DNA of 64,000 nucleotides from Salinicola peritrichatus (GTDB taxonomy: Bacteria > Pseudomonadota > Gammaproteobacteria > Pseudomonadales > Halomonadaceae). Below, one piece after another: positions 10,470 to 56,384 of this stretch. The first letter of the stretch is position 1. Every line of letters starts with the position of its first letter. A program made the translations under genes and the position numbers. The notes under the pieces were generated by a model. The model saw nothing but the letters and a program-made list of their open reading frames with translations. It was not told the origin of the DNA and did not search any database. Location of the stretch: assembly GCF_003206715.1 (NCBI RefSeq), contig NZ_PZJU01000008.1, positions 217,533 through 281,532 on the forward strand. Direction: 5' to 3'.

Positions 10470-10667
10470 ATGCTCATCCTGACCCGTCGAGTGGGAGAGA
10501 CTCTCATGATCGGCGACGACATTACCGTCACGGTTCTGGGAGTGAAAGGGAATCAGGTGCGCATCGGCGTGAATGCGCCCAAGGATGTGGCCGTCCACCG
10601 CGAAGAGATCTATCAGCGCATCCAGCGCGAGAAATCCGAAGACGAAGACGGCGGTCCCGGCGTATAA
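10470..10667 (+). CDS. csrA: Carbon storage regulator CsrA
   Basis: This 65-residue RNA-binding protein is a global post-transcriptional regulator that binds GGA motifs in mRNA leaders. The sequence opens [18 protein letters not shown] and carries the conserved [19 protein letters not shown] block. The C-terminal tail is acidic and variable as usual. AAGGAGATCAG before the start holds a GGA overlapping the ribosome-binding site, and another GGA lies about 15 bp further upstream. This is compatible with autoregulation, though that is inference. It sits between lysC and the tRNA-Ser gene, as in many gammaproteobacteria. Confidence 0.97.
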
Positions 10668-50432: not shown

Positions 50433-50532
50433 TCGCCGATGCGCGGGCGTCCATGCCCGCCGCAGAAAACGCTCTGGTATAGTTAAGGCTCGATCGTTTC
50501 AAGCCTTGCCCACCTGCCGGAGCGTCACTTCC

Positions 50533-51843
50533 TTGGACTCGCGCTTTCCCTTCGTCGACTGGTTCCGTAATTCGTCGCCCTATATCAACGCCCATCGCGG
50601 CAAGACCTTCGTCATTCTGATCGAAGGCGAGGCGATGGCGTCGTCACGCTGGGATCAACTGCTGCAGGATCTCGCGCTGCTGCATACCCTGGGCGTACGG
50701 CTGGTGCTGGTCTATGGCATCCGCCCCCAGGTCAACCAGGCGCTCGAGGCCGCCGGTGTCACGCCCTACCGGGTCGAGGGGCGTTGGGTCGCCGACCGCC
50801 GGATCATGGAGCATGTCGAGCGTATCGCCGCGCGCCAGCGTCTCGATCTCGAAGCGCAACTGTCGCTGGGCCTGCCCAACACGCCGCTGCATGGCGTCGA
50901 GTTGACTGCCGTTTCCGGCAACCTGGTCACGGCGAAGCCGCTCGGCGTGCGCGAGGGGATCGATTTCGATCACGCTGGCGAGGTCCGCCGCGTGCGCAGT
51001 CAGGCGATCGAGAGTTTGCTGGCCGATGGCAACCTGGTGATCTTGCCGCCGCTGGGCTATTCGCGCACCGGCGAAGTCTTCGACCTCGATGCCTCCGAGA
51101 TCGCCCAGCACGTGGCGATCGCGCTCAAGGCGGACAAGCTGATCCTACTCGGCGAATCGGCCGGGCTGCATGACGACAGCGGGCAGTTGCAGCGCCAATT
51201 GACACCGGGCGAGGCCGAGATGTTGCGTCAGCAGGCGGCACCGGGCAGCGAACTCTCGCGCCATCTGGGCGCCGCCTGCGAAGCGGCACGGCACGGCGTC
51301 GGCCGTACCCATCTGCTCTCCTGGCGGGATCACGATGCGCTGCTCGGGGAGCTATTCACCCGCGACGGCGTGGGCACCATGATCACGCAGAATCGCTACG
51401 AACAACTGCGTCAGGCCGTGCTCGACGACGTCGGCGGTCTGCTGGCGCTGCTCAAGCCGCTGGAGGCCAGCGGCATGCTGGTGGCCCGAACCCGCGAGCG
51501 GCTGGAGCACGAGATCGACGATTATGTCGTCATCGACCGCGACGGCATGGTGATCGGCTGCGCGGCACTGCACCGTCATCCGGACGCCGGCATGGGCGAA
51601 CTGGCCTGTCTCGCCGTGCATACCGACTACCGCCGCGGCGCCCGCGGCGAAACCCTGTTGGCGGAAATCGAACGTCGGGCGCGTCGATCCGGCCTGACGC
51701 AATTGTTCGCGTTGACCACGCACACCACGCACTGGTTCTTCGAGCGCGGGTTCTCGCTGGCGTCGCTGGAGGCGCTGCCCGAGGTCAAGCGCGAGACTTA
51801 CAACCAGGCCCGGCGCTCCAAGGTGTTGTTGAAGTCGCTATAA
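50533..51843 (+). CDS. argA: Amino-acid N-acetyltransferase (N-acetylglutamate synthase) ArgA
   Basis: The 436-residue enzyme acetylates glutamate to begin arginine synthesis. It has an amino-acid-kinase-like domain at residues 1-285 (FVILIEGEAM, LVLVYGIRPQVNQAL, LLGES), which carries arginine feedback. A C-terminal GNAT domain follows (ELACLAVHTDYRRGARGETLL, near residue 355). The most likely start is TTG 50533 (LDSRFPFVDWFRNSSPYIN), ten bases after GGAG. An earlier in-frame TTG at 50506 lacks a site. There is no ATG close to the family start. It probably has its own promoter. Confidence 0.95.
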   Translation: MDSRFPFVDWFRNSSPYINAHRGKTFVILIEGEAMASSRWDQLLQDLALLHTLGVRLVLVYGIRPQVNQALEAAGVTPYRVEGRWVADRRIMEHVERIAARQRLDLEAQLSLGLPNTPLHGVELTAVSGNLVTAKPLGVREGIDFDHAGEVRRVRSQAIESLLADGNLVILPPLGYSRTGEVFDLDASEIAQHVAIALKADKLILLGESAGLHDDSGQLQRQLTPGEAEMLRQQAAPGSELSRHLGAACEAARHGVGRTHLLSWRDHDALLGELFTRDGVGTMITQNRYEQLRQAVLDDVGGLLALLKPLEASGMLVARTRERLEHEIDDYVVIDRDGMVIGCAALHRHPDAGMGELACLAVHTDYRRGARGETLLAEIERRARRSGLTQLFALTTHTTHWFFERGFSLASLEALPEVKRETYNQARRSKVLLKSL

Positions 51844-51877
51844 AGCGACACCTGGAAAGCGGGGTTTTATGCCGGGG

Positions 51878-51895
51878 CGTCTCCAAATGGAGACA
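51878..51895. promoter_or_regulatory. candidate GlrR (QseF) binding site
   Basis: CGTC-N10-GACA matches 7 of 8 fixed positions of the enterobacterial GlrR site TGTC-N10-GACA. It also forms a 16-bp palindrome, GTCTCC-AAAT-GGAGAC. It lies about 200 bp upstream of the sigma54 promoter, a normal enhancer distance. A related GTC-N7-GAC sequence at 51947-51959 shares the AAATGG centre, and is enclosed in an 8-bp inverted repeat GCCGAAAT/ATTTCGGC (51934-51969). Confidence 0.55.
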
Positions 51896-52066
51896 ATATA
51901 ACTTGATGATAAATAAGCAAATTTACGGTTCTCGCCGAAATGTGCTGTCAAATGGCGACGTATTTCGGCCAATTTTCCCTCTCCTAGTCGATCCCTCTCG
52001 ACCCTGGCCAGAAAGCATTCGCCGGCAATGAGTTCAAGCTATTGATTTTTAAAAATAAAACCAATG

Positions 52067-52083
52067 TTGGCACGGCTTTGGCA
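52067..52083 (+). promoter_or_regulatory. sigma54 promoter upstream of the glrK locus
   Basis: TTGGCACGGCTTTGGCA has the invariant GG (52069-52070) and GC (52081-52082) separated by exactly ten bases, as sigma54 requires. The -24 half TTGGCACG is perfect, and the -12 half TGGCA differs by one base from TTGCA. Transcription would start near 52094, about 710 bp before glrK. A sigma54 activator, GlrR, is encoded in the same locus. Confidence 0.75.
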
Positions 52084-52093
52084 CTAGTATTTA

Positions 52094-52551
52094 CCGAGAG
52101 CGACGAGATGACATCTTGAATGTTGTTTCGGCGAATCTTGCTCAGGGGCCTCGACAACCCTGTGCAGGGTCCTAGCAAGGTTCGATAGTGTCTGCTCCAT
52201 GCGATGTGTGACTTAGGTTGCGATGAGACGGGTGCGGCCTTCGGGCAGGGAGATGCACCATTCGGGCAAGGATGCCCCGGCAAGGATGCCTTCCCCCTCG
52301 CGAGAGGGGACCCATTCACGATCGGCCGCCTGGTTTTGAAAGCTAGGCGACCGCTCAGGAATCGAAGCAGGCGGTTCGCCGCCACGGAAGCCGACAGCCC
52401 CTGAATGGCTTATGTCGCCTCTCCGGCTTCGGGGGCCTTCGGGCCCGCAGGAACGCTTTCGAACAGCTGATTCAGGCAGTTTTTCAAGAGCGTTCTTTTG
52501 ACCCTTCAGTTCCCTGCGTACCTTGGGCCGGCTCTGCCGGCCCTCTTTTTT
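52094..52551 (+). ncRNA. putative GlmY-like small RNA (extent uncertain)
   Basis: The stretch between the sigma54 start and a strong terminator is about 458 nt and has no credible gene. The first 100 nt fold well. GAATCTTGCT-C-AGG (52133-52146) pairs with CCTAGCAAGGTTC (52171-52183), enclosing an inner ACCCT/AGGGT hairpin (52157-52170). Further on are GGGCA/TGCCC (52264-52277), GGCA/TGCC (52279-52290), CCCCTC/GAGGGG (52294-52309) and GGGCC/GGCCC (52433-52446) hairpins. Enterobacterial glmY lies in the same place, before glrK-qseG-glrR, under sigma54 and GlrR, but is only about 180 nt. The mature RNA may be shorter, and the 52204-52310 part may be an inserted repeat. Homology to GlmY itself is not shown. 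Confidence 0.45.
52525..52551 (+). terminator. Rho-independent terminator before glrK
   Basis: A perfect 8-bp GC stem (GGGCCGGC with GCCGGCCC), with loop TCT, is followed by TCTTTTTT. It would end any transcript from the sigma54 promoter about 250 bp before the glrK start. This implies that promoter makes a separate RNA. Confidence 0.92.
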
Positions 52552-52803
52552 GGTCGCTGCTTCGACAGGCTTCGAGCCGGCGAAGCGATGCTCTGGCCGG
52601 CACCATGACGAATTTCGGGAATAGGGCTTCGAGCGATGCTGGTACGCGGCGATAACGGGTCAAAAACGGGAACGATAAACAGCGGCAGCTCTACCCAGGC
52701 GGCGCGGCAAGTACTCCAAAGCCCCGCATTGGCGTTCAATAAAAATGTTATCCTTGCGAAACGATCCATGACACGAATGGGCCTCCTGCATAGAGCCACT
52801 CTT

Positions 52804-54318
52804 ATGACCACTGAGCTCTCCCGACGCTGGCGTCCGCGCTCGCTGATGCAACTGGTGCTATTGGCGTTTCTCGTCGTGATGCTGCCCATCGCCGTGCTGA
52901 TGTTCCAGGCCGGCCAGGCGCTGTCCGAACTCTCGTCTCTGGCCGACCAGAGCGCCCGACAGGCGGTGGAGGAGACTCGCCGCGCGCGCATGCTGAGTTC
53001 ACTGGCGCTACAGATGGAGCGCAGCGCGCGCCAGTATGCGGTGATCGAAGAGGAGGGCCTGCGCGATATCTACAATCAGAAGGCGCAACAGTTCGGCGAG
53101 CTGTTGGCGCAGCACGAGCCGTTGATGCATGACAATCCCGATTTCCAGTCGCTGGTCGAGCGCTACCGGCAACTCAAGGTGCTGCCCGAGATGCCGGTTG
53201 CCAACATGGATGCCTTCCTGCAACGCTTTTCCGGTTTCGGGGCGGAATCCGACGCCGTGCGCGATGACACCAACCAGCTGATCGACGATCGTATCGCGCG
53301 CATTCGCGAGCAGGCCAACGCGGTCAAGACGCGTCTATGGATGCAGACCGCTGCGCTGGTTTCCGCCAGCCTGATGCTGATGCTGTTCTTTACCTGGCTG
53401 ATCACGCGGCCGATCCGCCAGCTGGAGCGACGCATCTTCGGCTTGGGCAGCGGCGATCAGGCGGAAACGACGAAGCGCATTCAAGGCCCGGCGGAGCTGG
53501 TGCAGTTGGGCGATCGACTCAACTGGCTGGCCAATCGCCTGTCCGAACTCGAAGCGCAGAAACAGCAGTTCCTGCGTCACATGTCGCATGAATTGAAGAC
53601 GCCGCTGGCAAGCATCCGCGAGGGCACCTCCTTGCTTTCCGACGGCGTGGCGGGCGAGCTCAACGAGCGCCAGGACGAGATAGTCCAGCTGATCGACGAG
53701 AACGGTCAGGAATTGCAGACCCTGATCGAGCAGTTGCTCGACTACAATCTGCTGCAGAACAGCCAGCGCATGAAAGTCTCGCGATTCGACGTTGCCACGG
53801 TGATCCAGGAGGTTCTCGCCAAGCACCGGCTGGCCTTGGACAACAAGGGAATGCAGGTCTCGAGCCCTCACCATCCGCTGGAATGGCAGGCGGACCGCGA
53901 GCGTACGGCCCGAATCCTGGACAACCTGATCTCCAACGCCATCGCCTACGGCGAGGATGGCGGCAGGCTGACGATACGCCTCGATCATCAGCGCGATTGG
54001 CTGGCGCTCGAGGTGGCCAACAGCGGCGAGCCGATCGCCAGCGTCGACCGCGAGCACCTGTTCGAAGCCTTCTATCAGGGTAGTACGAAACGCAAGGGGC
54101 CGCTAAAGGGATCGGGAGTCGGGCTGTCGGTGGCGGCGGACTGCGCGCGGCTGCAGCACGGCCAGCTGGCCCTGGTCGACGATGCCGAACTGCCGGTCTG
54201 TTTCCGGCTCACGCTGCCCTGGGCTGCACGCGGCTCCGATCGTGGTAACGACGCCAGCACAGCGGAAAAGGTGGTACTGGCCGACGACGCAAGGAAGGAA
54301 ACATGGTCACTAAAGTGA
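52804..54318 (+). CDS. glrK: Sensor histidine kinase GlrK (QseE)
   Basis: The 504-residue kinase has two transmembrane helices, at about residues 16-38 and 180-200, around a helical periplasmic domain. A HAMP segment, the H-box QFLRHMSHELKTPLASIREG (near residue 260) and HATPase boxes (NLISNAIAYGEDGG, GSGVGLSVAADCARLQ) follow. The start MTTELSRRWRPRSLMQLVLLAFL resembles the E. coli GlrK N-terminus (PRSLRQLVMLAFL), so ATG 52804 was chosen. ATG 52768 is an alternative. No strong ribosome-binding site is seen. The lipoprotein gene qseG and regulator gene glrR follow, identical in order to the enterobacterial locus. Confidence 0.9.
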   Translation: MTTELSRRWRPRSLMQLVLLAFLVVMLPIAVLMFQAGQALSELSSLADQSARQAVEETRRARMLSSLALQMERSARQYAVIEEEGLRDIYNQKAQQFGELLAQHEPLMHDNPDFQSLVERYRQLKVLPEMPVANMDAFLQRFSGFGAESDAVRDDTNQLIDDRIARIREQANAVKTRLWMQTAALVSASLMLMLFFTWLITRPIRQLERRIFGLGSGDQAETTKRIQGPAELVQLGDRLNWLANRLSELEAQKQQFLRHMSHELKTPLASIREGTSLLSDGVAGELNERQDEIVQLIDENGQELQTLIEQLLDYNLLQNSQRMKVSRFDVATVIQEVLAKHRLALDNKGMQVSSPHHPLEWQADRERTARILDNLISNAIAYGEDGGRLTIRLDHQRDWLALEVANSGEPIASVDREHLFEAFYQGSTKRKGPLKGSGVGLSVAADCARLQHGQLALVDDAELPVCFRLTLPWAARGSDRGNDASTAEKVVLADDARKETWSLK

Positions 54319-54851
54319 AGAGCGCGCTGGCGTTCGCCGTCGTCATGACGCTGGCGGGTTGCCAGTCGCTGTCCGGTGGGGCATCGACGCCCCACGGCTG
54401 CGGCGACGTGCCGACATTCGCCGACAACGTCTGCTTGCTCGACTCCTGGGTTGCCTTCGGCCTTGAGGCGCAGCGCGGCGACGCTGCCTGGCGCCAGCAG
54501 GTCCTGTCCGAAATCGGCGCCAGCCGGGCCGAGCAGAAGGCGGCACGGGCGGTCGTGCTCTCCTGGGATGGCCCGAGTGAGTGGCGGCAGGCCTCGAATC
54601 TCTACAAGGCGACGATTTCCACGGCCCCGGCGCGTTTGCAGCCATTGCTGCAACAGTGGCTGAACGGCCTGGAGGAGCGGCGAGAACTCTACGCCCAGCA
54701 GGGAGCGGGCGGTAGCCGACAGGGAGGAAACAACGATGATACGCAGGCGCTGAAACGCGAAAACCGGAAGCTGAAGCAGCAGCTCGAGGAGATGTCGGAC
54801 AAGCTCGATGCCTTGACCGATATCGAGCGAACCATTAATTCACGCGACTGA
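54303..54851 (+). CDS. qseG: QseG-like lipoprotein
   Basis: The 182-residue protein has a lipoprotein signal with lipobox LAGC (Cys near residue 20), so it should be anchored in the envelope. The rest is helical, and the last 50 residues form a coiled coil (LKRENRKLKQQLEEMSDKLDAL). It overlaps the end of glrK by 16 bases and sits between glrK and glrR. E. coli QseG occupies this position and stimulates the kinase through its periplasmic domain. Sequence resemblance is weak by eye, and the assignment depends on position and type. Confidence 0.78.
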   Translation: MVTKVKSALAFAVVMTLAGCQSLSGGASTPHGCGDVPTFADNVCLLDSWVAFGLEAQRGDAAWRQQVLSEIGASRAEQKAARAVVLSWDGPSEWRQASNLYKATISTAPARLQPLLQQWLNGLEERRELYAQQGAGGSRQGGNNDDTQALKRENRKLKQQLEEMSDKLDALTDIERTINSRD

Positions 54852-54956
54852 GCCATCCGTGCGGCGTCAAGGAGTGGCGGCGTACCGACGCGTCACATTG
54901 ATCGTGGCAAGCCATCATCCGGTGGCGAACGAGAGATGGCAGGAGGTGTCCATTCC

Positions 54957-56384
54957 ATGTCATTGAATACCGAAGTTTCCAAACGGCCGGTGAGAACGCC
55001 CGCCATGCAGCCGGGAAAGAGCGCGAACACGGCGCACATCCTGTTGGTGGATGACGACAAGAGCCTGCTCAAGCTGCTGGGCATACGCCTGGAGAGCCGG
55101 GGGTTTCGCGTCACCACCGCCGAGAGCGGTCGTGAAGCCCTTGGCCACATCGAGGAAGATACGCCGGACCTGGTACTCTCCGACCTGCGAATGGACGAGA
55201 TGGATGGCCTGGCGCTGTTCCATGAGCTGCAGCGCCGCATGCCCGGCATGCCGGTGATCATTCTCACGGCGCACGGCTCGATTCCGGATGCCGTCAGCGC
55301 TACGCGACAGGGTGTATTCAGCTTCCTGACCAAGCCGGTCGATCGCGATGAGCTGTTCGAGGCGATCGACGAGGCACTCAAGCAGACGCCGACCACGAGA
55401 GGCGAGGGCGGTGAAGCCTGGCGCTCGCAGATCATCACCCGCAGCCCGCAGATGGAGCGCATTCTCGAGCAGGCCTACATGGTCGCCGCCTCCGATGTGA
55501 GCGTGTTGCTGACCGGCCCCAGCGGTAGCGGCAAGGAGCTGTTGGCCAACGCCATGCACCAGGCCAGTCCGCGGGCCGACAAGCCGTTCGTGGCGATCAA
55601 CTGCGGGGCATTGCCGGAACAGTTGCTGGAGAGCGAGCTGTTCGGCCATGCCCGTGGCGCCTTCACCGGCGCGGTCAGCCAGCACGAAGGCCTGTTCCTG
55701 GCCGCCAACGGCGGCACGCTGTTCCTGGACGAGATCGGCGACATGCCGCTGACGCTGCAGGTCAAACTGCTGCGTGCGCTGCAGGAGCGCCAGATCCGCC
55801 CGCTCGGTAGCACCAAGTCGGTACCGATCGACGTGCGCATCATCTCGGCTACCCATCGCGACCTCGACCGCGCCATGCACGAAGGCGATTTCCGCGAGGA
55901 TCTCTACTACCGCCTCAACGTGGTCAATCTCAAGCTGCCGCCGCTGCGCGAGCGCGCCGAGGACATTCCGCTGCTGGCCAAGCACATGGTGGCGCAGGTC
56001 GCCGCTCGGCATAAGCCGTTCGTCAAAGGCTTCTCGCCGGAAGCACTCAACCTGCTCGCTTCCAGCGCCTGGCCCGGCAACGTGCGCCAACTGGTCAACG
56101 TGGTCGAGCAGTGCGTGGCGCTGACCAGCACGCCGATGATTCCCGAAGCGCTGGTCTCCCAGGCGCTGGCCGCCGAGGAGAATGCGCTGCCTTCGTTCAG
56201 CGAGGCGCGTGCTAGCTTCGAGCGCAGCTATCTGATCAAGGTACTCAAGATCACCGAAGGCAACGTCACCCAGGCGGCGCGCATCGCCGGACGCAACCGT
56301 ACCGACTTCTACAAGCTGCTGTCGCGCCACGATCTCGACCCCAGCAGCTTCAAGCCGAGCGCGGTGCCGGATCAGGAAATCTGA
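54957..56384 (+). CDS. glrR: Sigma54-dependent response regulator GlrR (QseF)
   Basis: The 475-residue protein has a receiver domain with phosphoacceptor Asp76 (LVLSDLRMDEMDG). Its AAA+ domain has Walker A GPSGSGKE, the sigma54-contacting GAFTGA loop, and Walker B GGTLFLDEIGDMP. The C-terminal Fis-type helix-turn-helix (KITEGNVTQAARIAGRNRTDFYKLL) matches GlrR. The start ATG 54957 has a perfect AGGAGGTG nine bases upstream. It carries an extra N-terminal stretch of about 20 residues before the receiver. It is the expected activator of the sigma54 promoter at 52067-52083. Confidence 0.93.
   Translation: MSLNTEVSKRPVRTPAMQPGKSANTAHILLVDDDKSLLKLLGIRLESRGFRVTTAESGREALGHIEEDTPDLVLSDLRMDEMDGLALFHELQRRMPGMPVIILTAHGSIPDAVSATRQGVFSFLTKPVDRDELFEAIDEALKQTPTTRGEGGEAWRSQIITRSPQMERILEQAYMVAASDVSVLLTGPSGSGKELLANAMHQASPRADKPFVAINCGALPEQLLESELFGHARGAFTGAVSQHEGLFLAANGGTLFLDEIGDMPLTLQVKLLRALQERQIRPLGSTKSVPIDVRIISATHRDLDRAMHEGDFREDLYYRLNVVNLKLPPLRERAEDIPLLAKHMVAQVAARHKPFVKGFSPEALNLLASSAWPGNVRQLVNVVEQCVALTSTPMIPEALVSQALAAEENALPSFSEARASFERSYLIKVLKITEGNVTQAARIAGRNRTDFYKLLSRHDLDPSSFKPSAVPDQEI

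Follow-up and report, generated by a model that had tools for sequence, protein, structure and literature searches.

The GlrK/GlrR two-component system is known mainly through GlmY, a small RNA (sRNA) of Enterobacteriaceae. The Qrr sRNAs of Vibrio, of which there are several per genome, are under one sigma54 activator (LuxO) and share a seed, and CrcZ of Pseudomonas is a ~400-nt RNA under CbrB/sigma54 that lies beside its two-component genes and titrates an RNA-binding regulator, its partner being Hfq/Crc and its motifs A-rich. The QseF/GlrR consensus is given in the cited passages as TGTCN10GACA (PMC8745638) and also as TGTN12ACA, with three sites at E. coli glmY and IHF assisting (PMC6075780); the stimulus of GlrK/GlrR in E. 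coli K-12 is described there as unknown (PMC6075780). CsrA, according to another paper, recognizes GGA motifs presented in hairpins, and RNAs with several such hairpins titrate it; the E. coli sRNA McaS both targets flhD and binds CsrA via a few GGA sites (PMC10729762). For Halomonas anticariensis, one published table gives the CsrA-titrating RNA as unknown (PMC7366521).

Locus and promoter

We analyzed a window of 64,000 nt from the 4.62 Mb, 109-contig genome of Salinicola peritrichatus, in which ~960 nt without a gene separate argA (50506-51843) from glrK-qseG-glrR. Within this interval the plus-strand segment 52093-52551, whose start is placed by the sigma54 promoter and whose end is placed by the terminator, is apparently a conserved, non-coding RNA gene of ~460 nt. 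It is followed on the same strand by a GlrK-like sensor kinase (52804-54318), assigned from its position and generic kinase matches with no match to a GlrK-specific model, a QseG-like lipoprotein (54303-54851; NF007997, E 1.3e-9, 37.7 bits, under the cut-off of 234) and the response regulator GlrR (54936-56384; NF011695, 811 bits against a cut-off of 763). The window also holds csrA (10470-10667, plus strand), the presumed partner of the RNA. The first-pass annotation had claimed for the interval a sigma54 promoter at the glmY position, a GlrR-like site, a stem-loop within the first 100 nt, a terminator and no gene, and all of these are borne out here.

There is no sign of a coding gene inside the RNA, since the longest ORFs of 50 relatives differ in both length and place, although this is a weak test. 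The predicted minimum-energy fold of the whole RNA has a z-score of -4.5 against 100 shuffles and begins with two 5′ stem-loops (52105-52184, plus strand), one of 10 pairs at 52105-52129 and the other a longer bulged arm of 21 pairs at 52132-52184. At the other end lies an intrinsic terminator, GGGCCGGC...GCCGGCCC plus a T run (52525-52551, plus strand), which is strong and kept in 30 aligned copies; with its U tail it would form an Hfq-type 3′ end, as in trans-acting base-pairing sRNAs.

The predicted sigma54 promoter TGGCACGGCTTTGGCA (52066-52081, plus strand) has one mismatch to TGGCACGNNNNTTGCW. All 30 homologous loci have a match with at most two mismatches in the equivalent position, as do 55 of the 56 named records; the exception is a fetched piece that starts 50 nt before the core. 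Upstream lie two GlrR/QseF-type palindromes, each agreeing with TGTCN10GACA at 7 of 8 positions. The first, AGTC-N10-GACA (51833-51850), overlaps the argA stop codon; a site stands at this offset (-234/-235) in 13 of 55 relatives, and it recurs in other Salinicola. The second, CGTC-N10-GACA (51878-51895), stands at -188, and relatives have a near counterpart at -189 to -192. Across the 55 upstream regions there are 76 sites matching at 7 or more of 8 positions, against 4.3 ± 2.1 (maximum 10) in 50 shuffles. Those of the relatives fall at fixed offsets near -235, -222, -211, -190, -179, -125 and -115; in several of the 55 upstream regions none reaches this threshold. An IHF consensus site on the minus strand (YAANNNNTTGATW as read on the plus strand, 52035-52047) recurs with at most one mismatch in 41 of the 55 upstream regions, standing at -33/-34 in 36; the share among shuffled regions is ~15%. 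Because GlrR-type sites, an IHF site and a sigma54 promoter are combined as published, the predicted promoter is of the glmY type, and we infer that GlrR binds at the TGTCN10GACA-type sites.

Distribution and related copies

By DNA similarity the RNA region is present in 44 of 61 sampled genomes of the family, covering 17 of 24 genera. A covariance model of the 3′ end recovered the same 44 genomes plus two weak matches that we took as chance, as we did all hits of this module model that scored 25-36 bits, G017 and G037 among them. By this search the Salinicola genome itself has a single copy. Just upstream of the hairpins described below lies an almost invariant 43-nt core (52188-52230, plus strand); its sequence is GTGTCTGCTCCATGCGATGTGTGACTTAGGTTGCGATGAGACG, which hardly varies among the relatives that bear it and has been lost in some divergent orthologs. 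A pattern for the core returned 56 named records, of which one is a 'Gammaproteobacteria bacterium' and 55 belong to Halomonas-related genera or Halomonadaceae, genera that we presume to lie in the Halomonas family. Six of 244 genomes drawn from the order matched the core model, five in the family and one elsewhere (24 bits), under stricter filters that missed G015 and G036, both of which have the 3′ module. The 24-bit match, in G234 of another family, was taken as chance because that genome has no GlrK relative at E<=1e-60.

We looked for glrK in nine of the 17 family genomes that lack the RNA. In five of them (G004, G010, G024, G028, G033) no close GlrK turned up at E<=1e-60; in the four that have glrK (G002, G016, G017 and G018; loci L181, L182, L184 and L185) the argA-glrK gap measures, by eye, roughly 10-160 nt. 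RNAalifold applied to 50 relatives reported both-sided change and at least 90% standard pairs at 33 of 117 pairs, a count made without a null model; the 5′ hairpin is among the pairs with both-sided change, and long-range pairs were set aside.

Some genomes have further copies. In G008 and G032 (L025 and L029) a second, shorter RNA of ~230 nt with a predicted sigma54/GlrR-type promoter and the same 3′ end stands in tandem before glrK. The 3′ seed discussed below is carried by both tandem RNAs and by the unlinked copies L125, L126, L127, L129 and L130, and with one change by L131, while L128 has the core and hairpins and no seed in the stretch read. A sigma54-like GG-N10-GC site with two or three mismatches, a threshold that has no shuffle control, precedes six of the seven unlinked copies (L126 fails). 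GlrR-like sites matching at 6 or more of 8 positions, likewise without a shuffle control, occur at -179 to -181 in L125, L127, L128, L131 and both tandem RNAs, and at -114 to -116 in L125, L127, L130 and both tandem RNAs. Judged from these predicted elements, the seed together with the GlrR/sigma54 promoter is the more general part of the family, and CsrA-type sites are found in most members.

Hairpins of the CsrA type

The core is followed on the plus strand by three hairpins. Hairpin A (52231-52259) has CANGGA on the 3′ side of its inner stem, and hairpins B (GGGCA-AGGA-UGCCC, 52264-52277) and C (GGCA-AGGA-UGCC, 52279-52290) each present a CsrA-type site; we take CANGGA to be the signature of a CsrA/RsmA site. 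Their conserved forms are GGUAC.GCC...GGC.ANGGA..GUACC for A, GGGCA-AGGA-UGCCC for B and GGCA-NGGA-UGCC for C. Over 25 named pairs in 29 distinct sequences, 98.3% of cells are standard pairs as against 32-46% with slid partners, a comparison that favors a structure drawn from the consensus. Within orthologs covariation is modest, with both sides changing in 4 of the 25 pairs (1.5 in shuffles), three of them in hairpin A. Divergent orthologs and paralogs have altered stems around a retained loop: GGGGUA-AGGA-UACCCC, CGGCA-AGGA-UGCCG, GGGAA-AGGA-UUCCC, CGGGA-AGGA-UCCCG and CGCCA-AGGA-UUGGCG.

CANGGA loops average 2.04 per RNA in 50 RNAs, against 0.07 in shuffles, only 0.2% of which have two or more. 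GGA loops of any kind are mildly enriched (2.62, compared with 1.75 in shuffles and 2.22 on the opposite strand). The family thus has several A(N)GGA-loop hairpins, as Csr/Rsm-type RNAs do, two or three of them conserved and missing in some members. We infer that CsrA binds hairpins A-C. The all-Rfam scan gave no Csr/Rsm family in 51900-52800 at E<=10. The Rfam RsmZ model matched 12 of 13 genomes at E<=1, never above its cut-off, and several of these weak matches look by eye like genuine Rsm RNAs.

A separate Rsm-type RNA is discernible by eye elsewhere in the Salinicola genome (contig C25, about 66.9-67.1 kb; L220/L237). It has some five GGA-loop hairpins, a sigma70-like promoter and a terminator, lies under the Rfam cut-off, and has homologs in the other four Salinicola genomes.

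The RNA could instead be a base-pairing sRNA only, serving as the GlrR output through its 3′ seed, with CANGGA hairpins that are structural and do not bind CsrA. Each RNA has just two or three CsrA-type sites, and the seed is kept in members in which no CANGGA hairpin was found, namely the G022 orthologous RNA, the paralog L131 and the tandem RNA of L029. Yet the loop persists as the stems change, with the variable N where a CsrA site would have it, all 56 core-bearing records have two CANGGA motifs in tandem, and csrA is present. We consider this explanation unlikely, with a small but real chance of being correct.

The 3′ seed and its predicted targets

The seed region AGTTCCCTGCGTA (52508-52520, plus strand) is complementary to the ribosome-binding region of flhD. 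Its word AGUUCCCUGCGUA precedes the terminator and is invariant in 30 aligned copies (30 of 32 found, two near-duplicates having been left out). As the copies were picked by the word AGTTCCCTGCG, it is the 3′-end model search that lends this invariance independent support. The predicted openness of the seed is 0.46, against an RNA mean of 0.34, and is the higher of the two in 41 of 50 predicted ensembles.

The seed includes a complement of the Shine-Dalgarno sequence, which by itself favors gene starts. A search for GCAGGGAA 3-9 nt upstream of ATG returned 141 places in eight genomes with the RNA, against 23 for the backward-read pattern; since reading backward is an unfair control for Shine-Dalgarno-like words, we relied on a comparison of flhD leaders instead. 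flhD (PF05247) was taken from 30 genomes, a set not chosen by the seed pattern, and is present in 24. The 26-nt module of the window is predicted to pair with the flhD leader at a mean of -21.1 kcal/mol in 18 loci from genomes that have the RNA and -11.8 kcal/mol in 8 loci from six genomes that lack it (one-sided Mann-Whitney p 8.7e-5, relatedness ignored); the latter genomes are few and form clades, so these are not independent points. Contiguous complements of at least 7 nt are found in 14 of 18 loci with the RNA, 0 of 8 without it and 85 of 1993 random pieces of the window; for at least 9 nt the counts are 9 of 18, 0 of 8 and 5 of 1993. Matches reach 12 nt, beyond the Shine-Dalgarno core, and the site covers the Shine-Dalgarno sequence, for example UACGCAGGGAAC at -17 in the Salinicola genome itself. 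The flhD site is missing in G007 and G013, which have the RNA, and is kept only with wobble or mismatch in G008 and G043. The seed is the very best flhD partner among all 18-nt windows of its RNA in just 5 of 18 cases, with a median of 0.9% of windows better. Predicted target complementarity is shown to track the presence of the RNA.

Of the 141 places, 139 were analyzed; of the remaining two, one is the sRNA gene and the other duplicates an overlapping place. The 139 open 59 ORFs of at least 60 aa, which were scanned as proteins (ten at E<=1e-3, 49 at 1e-6), and 39 have a Pfam match. Among the annotated ORFs behind GCAGGGAAN{3,9}ATG, 17 of 39 encode a flagellar regulator, pilus protein or chemoreceptor, a raw share that has no chance baseline and is 7 of 24 when counted by kind. 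These are FlhD (6, one each in six genomes), pilins (4), PilC/GspF-like (2), PilT/PilU family (2) and PilQ-like (1) proteins and chemoreceptors (2); the NCBIfam scores of the pilus-assembly proteins lie under curated cut-offs, most being fragments of the fetched stretch. Among the remaining 22 are GntR regulators, transporters, enzymes and, in five Salinicola, a TonB receptor. This TonB-dependent receptor, with GCAGGGAACGCCATG in its start region in each of the five Salinicola genomes searched (L229-L233, L193), may be a further target. A conserved seed and complementary sites at predicted target ribosome-binding sites are traits of a base-pairing sRNA.

These data also bear on the converse explanation, a CsrA-titrating RNA of the Rsm/Csr type whose 3′ end merely provides termination or stability and whose flhD match is a by-product of the Shine-Dalgarno-like complement. 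The CANGGA hairpins and the composition of the seed fit this explanation, which is nonetheless hard to square with the contrast between flhD leaders of genomes with and without the RNA, with matches of up to 12 nt that run beyond the Shine-Dalgarno core, with the small number of CsrA-type sites relative to CsrB and with the members that have no CANGGA hairpin. We judge it decidedly improbable.

Relation to GlmY

Like GlmY (PMC6075780, PMC8745638), the Salinicola RNA lies upstream of glrK-qseG-glrR behind predicted GlrR/QseF-type sites, an IHF site and a sigma54 promoter, and RapZ is encoded in the genome. A diverged GlmY/GlmZ, binding RapZ and controlling glmS, would account for this arrangement. 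However, the all-Rfam scan of 51900-52800 found neither GlmY nor GlmZ (RF00128, RF00083) at E<=10, and the GlmY model had no match in the genome at the same threshold; in control genomes this model matched 3 of 14 named genomes including E. coli, one of them above the cut-off, and the GlmZ model was run within the window. Pairing of seed and core with the Salinicola glmS leader does not surpass that of random 240-mers taken from the window, and other RNA segments have chance-level partners there. In the glmS leaders of 13 genomes the seed ranks at the 32nd percentile of windows (median) and is never best. Taken alone, the presence of RapZ is no indicator of GlmY, because the same search is positive in 6 of 14 control genomes. 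With its different length and conserved elements, the RNA is not recognisably GlmY, and we reject GlmY/GlmZ homology for want of an Rfam match and of special glmS complementarity; a diverged member of that family is very unlikely. A similarity at 52474-52558 to SorY (35 bits against a cut-off of 111) and mmgR (22.8 bits against 41) consists mostly of the terminator and was set aside.

The first-pass annotation had proposed a GlmY-type sRNA, to be checked by Rfam models, by the presence of rapZ and by pairing with glmS. The sRNA gene, its glmY position and its glmY-type control sites stand; homology to GlmY does not, the model and glmS checks having come out negative and the rapZ check positive in an unspecific way. 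Its alternative of an unrelated RNA as the GlrR output is supported by the combination of glmY-type control sites with no GlmY match.

That the RNA is not independent and simply serves the glrK-qseG-glrR operon as a long, regulated leader, as its place upstream of glrK on the same strand and the co-transcription of P. mirabilis glmY with qseEGF (PMC8745638) might suggest, is scarcely credible given the strong terminator in 30 aligned copies and the paralogs at unlinked places.

Discussion

We propose that the RNA probably represents a GlrR/sigma54-controlled sRNA family whose members repress flagellar and pilus mRNAs and, in most cases, bind CsrA as well. GlrR at TGTCN10GACA sites, aided by IHF, would activate the sigma54 promoter in the arrangement published for E. 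coli glmY. The seed AGUUCCCUGCGUA would pair with the Shine-Dalgarno region of flhD and block its translation, and may similarly block type IV pilus and chemoreceptor mRNAs in several genomes. The CANGGA loops of hairpins A-C would bind CsrA, and the bound RNA might either draw CsrA off mRNAs or have its own action modified. Both arms would then favor a sessile over a motile state.

The best reading is that a McaS/Qrr-like analog sits at the GlmY position. On the evidence of sequence, the RNA would work like McaS, through flhD and CsrA, and be driven like GlmY or Qrr, and it matches no Rfam family. Unlike GlmY, it has no Rfam similarity to that RNA, is ~460 nt by prediction, has CANGGA hairpins and an flhD-directed seed and gives no sign of glmS control. 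McaS shares the flhD and CsrA connections (PMC10729762), whereas the Salinicola RNA is larger, has another regulator and promoter and a 3′-terminal seed directed at the Shine-Dalgarno sequence with predicted repression, the sequences being compared via the Rfam scan only. The likeness to Qrr lies in several sRNAs per genome in some species, a single sigma54 activator and a shared seed; regulator, targets and sequence differ, and the Salinicola genome has one copy. CsrB/RsmZ-type RNAs have similar ANGGA-loop hairpins but differ in that here only two or three sites are conserved, sigma54/GlrR takes the place of Gac and a seed is added, in a genome that seems to hold a separate Rsm-type RNA. By description alone, CrcZ is comparable as a ~400-nt sigma54 RNA beside two-component genes that titrates an RNA-binding regulator, and is set apart by its Hfq/Crc partner and A-rich motifs. 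We found no description of the Halomonadaceae RNA in the literature within our scope, which takes in few subscription papers.

More broadly, GlrK/GlrR of Halomonadaceae may well act via a family of sigma54-dependent, two-armed sRNAs, multi-copy in some species, that combine CsrA hairpins with a shared flhD/type IV pilus seed, so that Csr would gain a second input beside the Rsm-type RNA. Since the RNA differs while its location and promoter logic match those of glmY, a single regulator would act through one RNA in one lineage and through an unrelated RNA in another. Predicted targets for such a second output open the system to experiments in other bacteria, where assays of motility or pili could disclose its stimulus. 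If true, this would join the GlrR and Csr networks and clearly illustrate how control can be conserved while the RNA under it has been replaced or acquired independently.
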